A stretch of 64,000 nt of DNA from Dipodascopsis uninucleata var. uninucleata. Its lineage: Eukaryota; Ascomycota; Lipomycetes; Lipomycetales; Lipomycetaceae. Below the pieces are notes generated by a model. That model was not told where the DNA came from and did not search any database. It was given only the letters and a program-made list of their open reading frames with translations. Positions within the stretch are counted from its first letter, which is position 1. Every line of letters begins with the position of its first letter. The stretch covers positions 868,001 through 932,000 of the forward strand of contig JAJLTO010000005.1 in NCBI GenBank assembly GCA_030568195.1. The letters are read 5' to 3'. This document shows, piece by piece, positions 3,596-5,898 of this stretch. Made by a program: the position numbers and the translations under genes.

Positions 3596-5065
3596 ATGAA
3601 GTTGAGTTTATTATCCTCGGGCATTCTGTTCGCCATTTTATCGTCGAGCGTCAGTGCCTCACCTTTATTAGAAAAAAAGCAAGACACGGCGTCTTCTACT
3701 GGTTATGTAAAAATACCAATTCAATCCAAGTATACACAAGAGGAGCGAGCTTCCAAGTTCTTTCAGTCGCGACGGCACCTGCGGCTGATGAAGCGAGATT
3801 CTGATGATACTACAAACTCAACTGCTCAGCTTGAGCTTTACAATAACTGGTCTTATGGTGCCTATATGGCAAACATTACTATTGGTTCACCAGGTCAAAG
3901 CGTATCAGTGCAGTTAGATACAGGCTCCTCAGATCTTTGGGTTCAGAGCTCATCGAACCCGACTTGCATGAGCAGCTCGACTGCCTGTGCATTAACAAAG
4001 ACGTTCAATCCAAGTGACTCTTCCTCTTTTAAATCTATCTCGGAAGATTTTCAAATTCAGTATCAGGATGGTACCTACGCCCTTGGTGAATACATTGAAG
4101 ACACTGTGACATTTGGTGACATCTCAATTGTTAGCCTTCAGCTGGGGTTAGCTGAAAATGCTACGTCAGATATCGGAGTTTTTGGAATTGGTTTTACGGC
4201 TAATGAGGCAGCTTCGACCAAGTACAAAAATTTCCCAGCGCGTTTAGTTGACGACGGCATTATTGCTGTGAATGCGTACTCTTTGTGGCTAGATGATACA
4301 GATTCAGTTTACGGAAATATTCTTTTTGGTGGTGTCGATTTAAAGAAGTTTACTGGTGACCTTATGACTGTCGATTTAGTGGCTCCTTCTTATGGCCGCT
4401 CTTACACCGAATTGTCACTTTCTTTGACTGCAGTAGAATTCACAAAGGCCAATTCGAGCGCGAACTCTACTTCTTCCATATATTCATCGTCTGCTGGGAT
4501 TACAACTGTTCTTGACTCTGGTACTACTTTCGGTGTTTTACCATCTTCCATCGTTAAATCGATCGCCAGTGACCTTGGCACATCGGGATATGATGAGGAT
4601 TATGGTATTTACATTGTGGACTGCTCAATGCAGTCGTCTGATGATACTGTTGATTTCACATTTGGAGGCAGTGCAACTATAAAAGTTCCTGCAAGACAGA
4701 TAATTGCAACAGTTGAACAATGGTCAGATGGCAACGATGTGTGCGCTCTTGGACTCACACCTTCATCTGATTCTGCAGATAGCGGTGATGTGATCTCGTC
4801 TGGTGAAGTATACCTTCTCGGTGATGCATTTTTACGAGGCGCCTACGTTGTGTATGATCTTGACAATAAGGAAATTTCTCTAGCGCAGGCTGTATACAAT
4901 GCAGATTCAGAAAGTAAAATCGTTGCTCTTAACTCCACAGGTGTTTCTGGTTTCGCTGGTGAAGGAACTTCTACTTCGTCTGCGACTTCTTTCGCAGTCT
5001 CGTCAAAGCCAGCTCTTGCTTTGATCGTCGTTAGTGTTGTCAGCGTTCTTGTGACCATCATGTAA
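3596..5065 (+). CDS. GPI-anchored aspartic protease (yapsin/candidapepsin family, A1)
   Basis: Intronless, 489 aa. An N-terminal signal peptide (residues 1 to about 21) is followed by a propeptide ending in a Kex2-type Lys-Arg at 66-67. The two catalytic motifs are DTGSSDLWV (Asp108) and DSGTTFGVLP (Asp307). The C-terminus is Ser/Thr-rich and ends in a hydrophobic stretch (PALALIVVSVVSVLV), the layout of a GPI signal. The protein should therefore sit at the plasma membrane or cell wall and process or shed surface proteins, as yapsins do. The yapsin disulphide loop after the first Asp is short here, with a Cys pair near 124 and 131. Several N-glycosylation sequons are present. It has a long upstream region of its own, which hints at regulated expression. 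The family is certain; orthology to a particular yapsin is not. Confidence 0.93.
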   Translation: MKLSLLSSGILFAILSSSVSASPLLEKKQDTASSTGYVKIPIQSKYTQEERASKFFQSRRHLRLMKRDSDDTTNSTAQLELYNNWSYGAYMANITIGSPGQSVSVQLDTGSSDLWVQSSSNPTCMSSSTACALTKTFNPSDSSSFKSISEDFQIQYQDGTYALGEYIEDTVTFGDISIVSLQLGLAENATSDIGVFGIGFTANEAASTKYKNFPARLVDDGIIAVNAYSLWLDDTDSVYGNILFGGVDLKKFTGDLMTVDLVAPSYGRSYTELSLSLTAVEFTKANSSANSTSSIYSSSAGITTVLDSGTTFGVLPSSIVKSIASDLGTSGYDEDYGIYIVDCSMQSSDDTVDFTFGGSATIKVPARQIIATVEQWSDGNDVCALGLTPSSDSADSGDVISSGEVYLLGDAFLRGAYVVYDLDNKEISLAQAVYNADSESKIVALNSTGVSGFAGEGTSTSSATSFAVSSKPALALIVVSVVSVLVTIM

Positions 5066-5355
5066 AGAATTGATGCATTGAATTTATTTGTAGTGTGTTG
5101 CATTGAAAATTAGTTTTGTCCGGGTTTTAAGACATTATGCTTTGATTTGTGTGATTGAGCTTGTAGAGCTTACTCTTTTATTTCTTGAAGTATTTTGCAC
5201 AATGGTATTAATAGGTAAATAAAGAAAGATATCAAATGTATTTTATATACAAGTTCATATTTATATCTACTGCTTTGTAGCGTTTGTAATGCTAAAGACA
5301 GAATGATTAGTACATTTCGGGATCAATAATTCTCAAACTTCATGAGTTCTCGTAC

Positions 5356-5898
5356 TTACAATTCAACAATCTTGATATTTGTGTCTAAAAATCGGTTAAC
5401 GCAATTAGACTAAATCAAGGTAATGTAGTTAGTATATCATTCGTCAATGTGCAAACACGTTTATGAGTTTCGAATCATACCAAGCCTATAAAAAATCTCT
5501 AGTTAGCTCTTGTGTCTTTCCATTACTTATTATTCAACAGCCATCGCTAATTACAAAGAAAAGAAAAGAATACTGTAACTTACAGGCAGCTTCCTGGCTA
5601 TCGACCGTACCATATGTAATATCGCTCTTAACGCACTTCTTGAAGCATAGGTCGGTAAAGGTGTGAATTCCTAGCCAAACATCGTGTCAGCATATATGTA
5701 GCAAGAAAATTATGGCCACCAAATACCTGCGTCGCATTATCACATAAAATTCTTTATACGATGACTCCTTGACATAATCTAATGTTACATACCATTTTGT
5801 AATTTCGACTTAGAGCTCTCTTGCTCGATGAACTTGGCGAGCTCTTCCCTAGCAGCCGGATCCAAATTGGCAAGCTGCTTCGAATCAATTTCCGACAT
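5356..5898 (-). CDS. TIM8: Mitochondrial intermembrane-space chaperone Tim8, with a 5-nt microexon
   Basis: Hand-built model of 83 aa: exons 5898-5793, 5670-5584, 5485-5481 and 5409-5356. The total is 252 nt and in frame. The protein starts MSEIDSKQLANLDPAAREEL and carries the twin CX3C motif of small Tim proteins, CFKKC then CLSNC, followed by VNRFLDTNIKIV, closely matching yeast Tim8. Tim8-Tim13 hexamers escort hydrophobic precursors across the intermembrane space to TIM22. The second CX3C can only be read if a 5-nt exon (GCTTG) is spliced in: skipping it gives an immediate stop. Donors are GTATGT, GTAAGT and GTATGA, acceptors CTAG, ATAG and TTAG, and a TACTAAC-like branch site precedes the last exon. 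It converges on the protease gene. Confidence 0.9.

Follow-up and report, generated by a model that had tools for sequence, protein, structure and literature searches.

A predicted five-nucleotide coding exon completes the second CX3C motif of TIM8 in the yeast Dipodascopsis uninucleata

Does the TIM8 gene of Dipodascopsis uninucleata depend on a coding exon of only five nucleotides and, if so, how would the spliceosome find it? The question was raised by an earlier note on the window, the whole 64,000-nucleotide stretch of DNA analysed here, which lies within a 16.2-Mb assembly of 25 contigs (lineage Saccharomycotina, Lipomycetes, Lipomycetaceae). The exon proposed there, GCTTG at 5485-5481, is found exactly at these coordinates and has an acceptor and a donor of its own (TTTTTTATAG before it, GTATGA after it; Table 1). 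With GCTTG included, the TIM8 frame reads ...QEAACLSNCVNRFLDTN... and the predicted spliced RNA ...GCCTGCTTGTCTAAT..., exons 2, 3 and 4 being joined as ...GCTGCC TGCTTG TCTAATTGC...; joining exon 2 directly to exon 4 gives GCC TTC TAA, that is Phe and then a stop, just as had been stated. The microexon had also been credited with half of the second CX3C motif; its exact share is two of the five residues of CLSNC, for it finishes the Cys codon with two bases and brings in the Leu. The gene as a whole has five exons on the minus strand, from 5898 to 5267. Its end had been placed at 5356, wrongly: this is the stop that would be reached if intron 4 were retained (...KIVEL*), and intron 4 and exon 5 had been missed. 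On the plus strand, an open frame of 489 residues (3596-5065) converges on TIM8 and ends about 200 bases from the TIM8 end; judging by its motifs we take it to resemble a yapsin-type GPI-anchored aspartyl protease.

Table 1. Predicted TIM8 gene (positions in the window), the twelve candidate microexons accepted elsewhere in the assembly, and the accepted loci (contig:position).
Feature	Position	Strand	Remarks
TIM8 exon 1	5793..5898	-	106 nt, ATG at 5898; protein matches PF02953 and yeast Tim8
TIM8 intron 1	5671..5792	-	122 nt; GTATGT, branch-like TGCTGAC, acceptor GGCTAG
TIM8 exon 2	5584..5670	-	87 nt; first CX3C = CFKKC; last bases ...GCC T
TIM8 intron 2	5486..5583	-	98 nt; donor GTAAGT 7.7 bits, acceptor TTTTTTATAG 9.4 bits
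Putative branch site GCTAAC, intron 2	5502..5507	-	A 18 nt before intron end
TIM8 exon 3, predicted 5-nt microexon GCTTG	5481..5485	-	completes Cys codon, adds Leu of CLSNC
TIM8 intron 3	5410..5480	-	71 nt; donor GTATGA, acceptor GATTTAG
Putative branch site TACTAAC, intron 3	5428..5434	-	A 20 nt before intron end
TIM8 exon 4	5360..5409	-	50 nt; remainder (SNC) of second CX3C
AG of acceptor CGATTTTTAG used by deposited 80-aa model	5385..5386	-	exon start then 5384
TIM8 intron 4	5292..5359	-	68 nt; GTAAGT...TACTAAT...TTTAG; P0001 has residues beyond
TIM8 exon 5	5267..5291	-	25 nt including TAG; CATTACAAACGC...
COX9			candidate; GTCTTG, 6 nt
RabGDI			candidate; GAACTG, 6 nt
OLA1-like GTPase			candidate; GCTTAACA, 8 nt
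GH72 glucanosyltransferase			candidate; 13 nt
VMA3, V-ATPase subunit c			candidate; 13 nt
MDP1 phosphatase			candidate; CC, 2 nt
ARP3			candidate; ACAA, 4 nt
RRM protein			candidate; AATTTA, 6 nt
NDK			candidate; 11 nt
MPC1 (L070)	C18:114722-114746		candidate; GT, 2 nt
MAT2B-like protein			candidate; GTACT, 5 nt
MTP18			candidate; ACT, 3 nt
Accepted loci L025, L029, L031, L032	C2:1276253, C10:25339, C14:111486, C9:99350		in that order
Accepted loci L034, L035, L042, L049	C1:692661, C3:696756, C13:422155, C4:1177781		in that order
Accepted loci L051, L070, L071, L090	C10:65886, C18:114722, C3:1295074, C3:646694		in that order

By its sequence, the predicted product is a small TIM of the Tim8 subfamily, nearer to Tim8 than to the other small TIMs. 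With the microexon it has 90 residues and matches PF02953 at 68.0 bits (E=4.9e-19); against the PDB it aligns with yeast Tim8 (3cjh_B) at 71.5 bits (E=4.8e-19), the runner-up being TIM10 at 32.3, in agreement with the near match to yeast Tim8 that had been claimed for this frame. The twin CX3C is present in 120 of 121 TIM8 homologues, a set made up of the deposited protein P0001 and the 120 listed out of 265 matches to a search profile, which included the twin CX3C and so favours motif-bearing homologues; the sole exception is P0001, the deposited protein of this very gene. The two motifs are 16 residues apart here and 15-18 in the 120 listed homologues, and P0002 and P0003, which are nearest to it as proteins, both have the motif. 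A search of the assembly for PF02953 returned four places, TIM8 and three others that by resemblance we take to be TIM9, TIM10 and TIM13; it revealed no second TIM8, and no microexon was seen in the translated stretches read of the TIM9, TIM10 and TIM13 loci. In the viral contigs, the only collection scanned for relatives, there were 14 pattern matches, none of them from a relative.

Is GCTTG the only solution that the sequence between exons 2 and 4 allows? All GT-AG junctions between the two exons were enumerated, the minimum intron length being 35 nt and the maximum length of a middle exon 60 nt. Among the direct junctions, 9 of 115 keep the frame open and none keeps both CX3C motifs; pooling GT-AG with GC-AG and AT-AC, rare types that were enumerated for direct junctions, gives 0 of 436. 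Two-intron combinations are frame-open in 60 of 930 cases and preserve both motifs in two, both of which go through GCTTG and its GTATGA donor: one starts from the GTAAGT donor, the other from GTTGAA, which adds 15 foreign residues. The dependence of TIM8 on its microexon, as first claimed, is well supported at the level of sequence and homology. Chance was gauged by dinucleotide shuffling, repeated 20,000 times, of the 174 nt that separate exon 2 from exon 4, the ends being kept fixed. An AG...GT exon of 1-30 nt restoring frame and motif arises in 948 of the shuffles, and CLSNC itself in 98; in no shuffle (0/20,000) do the branch, acceptor and donor scores of such an exon add up to the total of the real one.

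The matrices behind these scores were built, with TIM8 omitted, on 49 introns identified de novo in the window and the sequence beside it, 264 kb in all. The training set (50 introns no longer than 130 nt, each having a GTAWG donor and an RCTRAY branch site) is small, impure and biased to strong sites: the corresponding searches yielded 41 matches at 110 nt and 56 at 150 nt, versus 12-23 and 17-37 in decoys (25-codon flanks). Expectation-maximisation training with loose flanks was dropped, having drifted to false introns, and a looser set was also set aside, with 88 matches versus 87, 56 and 43 in three decoy runs (40 codons). On this scale the acceptor of the microexon is strong (9.4 bits versus an upper quartile of 7.1 in the 49 training introns), while the donors of introns 2 and 3 are weak (both 7.7 bits; training lower quartile 8.4), as is the exon 4 acceptor (4.3 bits; training lower quartile 5.3). 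Since baker's yeast can do without TIM8, poor splicing of this gene might also be tolerated. We put at about 0.92 the probability that exon 3 of this gene, the only TIM8 found in the assembly, is a genuine constitutive 5-nt coding microexon spliced by intron definition.

The deposited D. uninucleata TIM8, P0001 (V1511DRAFT_510661), gives a different picture. It has 80 residues, the same as ours except at the place of the microexon and including those of exon 5, and it is reproduced exactly by a join from 5583 to 5384 in which CLSNCVNRFLD is lost; its PF02953 score is 33.7 bits versus 68.0 with the microexon. Could this model simply be correct, exon 2 being spliced to 5384 via CGATTTTTAG to yield an 80-aa protein that does without a second CX3C? 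The junction keeps the frame, the depositors may have had transcript data, and their method may see tiny exons, since COX9 from the same source agrees with a 6-nt exon. Yet such splicing would delete half of a motif that 120 of those 121 homologues contain, and it would bypass the nearer exon 4 acceptor for one lying 45 nt from the best branch site, TACTAAC, a distance to be compared with a median of 19 and a 95th percentile of 36 in a looser, impure intron set. It would also leave unexplained a full set of microexon sites that no shuffle equalled. We consider this reading very unlikely; P0001 is probably an error of the gene model or annotation in which the microexon was skipped. Given that COX9 was deposited with its 6-nt exon, the skip in TIM8 is not certainly due to software blind to tiny exons. 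The case flags a deposited protein without half of its defining motif and shows how, in intron-rich yeasts, essential residues can drop out of a gene model when an exon is too tiny to be noticed.

An assembly error or a decayed gene would dispose of the microexon altogether. Beyond the fact that baker's yeast can live without TIM8, nothing was found to support this explanation: the frame is intact, the four introns have recognisable sites, and P0001, which derives from another assembly, its contig being 1,357,974 nt long versus 1,359,059 here, has the same residues on either side of the microexon. It is hardly credible here. Equally far-fetched is a stwintron, that is, two nested introns removed successively with no exon left, although stwintrons are known in Lipomyces, of the same family, and the 174 nt in total would fall in the 140-320 nt range given for them in the available part of that report (PMC7138796). 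The likeness extends to two packed introns that would be removed one after the other. In contrast to the nested Lipomyces stwintrons, which keep no exon, the TIM8 acceptor precedes and the donor follows the exon, so that its introns are serial; moreover, full removal leads to Phe and a stop, where a stwintron leaves the frame intact.

Alternatively, the microexon might be real and its use regulated: inclusion would yield Tim8 and skipping a truncated or 80-aa form, the choice acting as a regulatory switch. An in-frame skip product does exist, and a condition-dependent microexon of 20 nt is described in Trichoderma Xlr2 (PMC11121469, excerpt). Against a switch, an exon of 5 nt is not divisible by three, and skipping yields a product without the defining motif; in human MPC1, a frame-breaking exon of 4 bp shows no detectable skipping in the portion of the report at hand (PMC9929638). 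Alternative use appears improbable, and constitutive inclusion is the reading we favour.

How might such an exon be recognised? That it should pose a puzzle for exon definition, as the earlier note had it, does not follow: the introns on either side, at 98 and 71 nt, are short enough for ordinary intron definition to suffice. In our proposal, the ordinary spliceosome would pair introns 2 and 3 each across itself and in turn, as 5 nt would hardly offer room for two complexes at a time. The strong, T-rich acceptor of intron 2 may help to commit the microexon before the exon 2 donor can pair with the exon 4 acceptor. Since this acceptor is transcribed earlier and is strong, intron 2 would probably be removed first, and the intron 3 donor would then end an exon of normal size; pairing of a donor with a nearby acceptor would demand nothing of the exon itself. 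Missing the microexon would lead to a stop codon or else deprive the protein of its second CX3C. Prp40 contains FF domains, and four matches to such domains, on two contigs, are encoded in the genome, at the domain level a candidate Prp40. In the accessible parts of the respective papers, one review presents intron definition as the predominant mode in yeasts and states that exons too small to hold splicing enhancers need Prp40 (PMC8624252), and microexons of C. elegans require PRP-40 (PMC8378409).

Exons of this size are not unprecedented, and the earlier suggestion that 5 nt is near the lower limit of the spliceosome has to be abandoned: exons of 1 nt have been published, one of them in a fungus. 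This is the exon of Fusarium CYP621A, spanned by 18 SRA reads (PMC12940212); like that of TIM8 it is fungal, coding, needed for the frame and a conserved motif, and found by homology, and the excerpt stresses that annotation pipelines overlook such exons. It differs in being 1 nt long and in having SRA reads in two species and 20 orthologues, whereas the TIM8 case is argued from sequence. The other 1-nt exon, likewise ultra-short, belongs to a plant, Arabidopsis; according to the available text, the smallest constitutive exon known until 2015 had 6 nt (PMC4674806). In minigene experiments, splicing of a human 4-bp exon persists even after its reduction to 2, 1 or 0 bp (PMC9929638, in part). 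Human MPC1 exon 2 is comparable to the TIM8 microexon: it is constitutive, its skipping breaks the frame, its gene encodes a mitochondrial protein and its acceptor region is important; it has long flanking introns and is spliced by exon definition in that account (PMC9929638), whereas the TIM8 introns are short. The Xlr2 microexon is also from an ascomycete, also carries cysteines of a metal-binding domain and is also missing from a JGI model, as far as the excerpt goes (PMC11121469); unlike that of TIM8 it is longer, at 20 nt, and regulated by glucose. No title on microexons of Dipodascopsis or Lipomyces appeared among the matches listed, in a search outside of which most subscription journals lie, and the literature matching microexon and Saccharomycotina concerned other subjects, judged by titles and the beginnings of abstracts. 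Ultra-short exons are already known; the apparent set of them within one yeast genome is the more interesting lead.

Such a set was sought with genome-wide patterns consisting of a branch site, an acceptor, 1-14 nt and a donor, with later variants allowing 1-8 and 1-7 nt. There was no clear genome-wide excess of matches over the backwards control (117 versus 148, 103 versus 87 and 120 versus 186), so the patterns alone prove nothing and the microexons rest on homology at single loci. The ranking for pattern 1 covered 98 places among the matches listed, two overlapping duplicates being omitted and the last contigs lying outside it. We fetched 67 loci (7, 20, 20 and 20), picked by eye or by acceptor score, and accepted those in which a conserved protein continues across the tiny exon, a judgement made by eye, unblinded and without decoy loci. 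Twelve of the 67 were accepted, with exons of 2-13 nt: nine of 27 from pattern 1, two of 20 from pattern 2 and one of 20 from pattern 3, whose list re-found TIM8. Five loci (L026, L027, L030, L037, L091) were rejected as plain coding or start sequence, and 45 remaining ones offered no convincing gene model. Some further pattern matches have no gene assigned and are not counted: L028 (5 nt, TGGTG), L038 (9 nt), L077 (7 nt), L081 (2 nt) and L084 (2 nt).

For the twelve candidates, the evidence lies mostly in the proteins. Skipping would break the frame in nine of the 13 microexon genes, TIM8 included. Pfam scores with and without the exon are 73.2 and 60.2 bits for GDI, 42.9 and 14.4 for MMR_HSR1, 119.6 and 54.3 for GH72, 90.2 and 21.9 for Acid_PPase, 28.5 and 21.0 for RRM, 60.5 and 22.7 for NDK, 72.6 and none for MPC, 37.5 and 27.4 for RmlD, and 118 and 109.6 for MTP18, the drop reflecting mainly loss of frame where the exon is frame-breaking. 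ARP3 scores 32.8 with its exon, the skip product being too short for the scan; COX9 and VMA3 have a Pfam match in neither form. Alignments to PDB proteins are gapless at the microexon for nine of the twelve: ARP3 (with one gap four residues before it), GDI, MDP1, NDK, the OLA1-like GTPase, COX9 (a weak alignment, E=0.001), VMA3, MPC1 and the MAT2B-like protein. For GH72, the RRM protein and MTP18, the support is from Pfam alone. Shuffles of the nine pattern-1 genes gave 0-4 successes in 2000. Seven frame-breaking genes offer exactly one exon that preserves the frame and comes with a branch site, YAG and GTAWG, and in each of them this exon also completes the protein. As the patterns had required such sites, it is the protein that gives this result its weight. 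Enumeration leaves MPC1 the least certain, with 9 of 41 AG...GT exons keeping the frame, one of them with GTAAGT. COX9, the only one of the twelve compared with its deposited protein, is identical over the 81 residues of P0122 (V1511DRAFT_509848) to our model with the 6-nt exon, at the protein level.

How many such exons might the genome hold? Both CTAAC and GTAWGT occur in 9 of the 50 training introns; as nine microexons were accepted via a pattern whose coverage is about one in five or six, a very rough guess would be about 50 genome-wide, a figure that may be low given that 27 of the 117 pattern-1 matches, selected by hand, were read. A wider reading, citing TIM8, COX9, MPC1, MTP18, VMA3, ARP3, GDI1 and NDK, is that several dozen microexons of 2-15 nt, coding and constitutively used, exist in this small genome of the budding-yeast subphylum; many would break the frame if skipped, many would belong to mitochondrial and housekeeping genes, and plain intron definition would handle them. 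To this we would give even odds. In animals the same task needs special factors; if the reading is true, the lineage would be a simple genetic model for microexon splicing. Confirmation by RNA would bring the coding exons of 4-5 nt to three (TIM8, ARP3 and the MAT2B-like gene) from a partial, hand-picked look at 16 Mb, with one exon of 3 nt (MTP18) and two of 2 nt (MDP1 and MPC1); in human, the available part of one survey gives four coding exons of 4-5 bp without skipped variants, and 2-bp exons in two genes (PMC9929638). With the set confirmed, how the spliceosome recognises exons too small to be defined could be studied in a simple yeast. As minor observations, the intron upstream of the microexon is longer than the downstream one in 10 of the 13 genes, which is not significant (two-sided sign test, about 0.09), and MPC1 seems to need a 2-nt exon here, human MPC1 having one of 4 bp (PMC9929638, in part).
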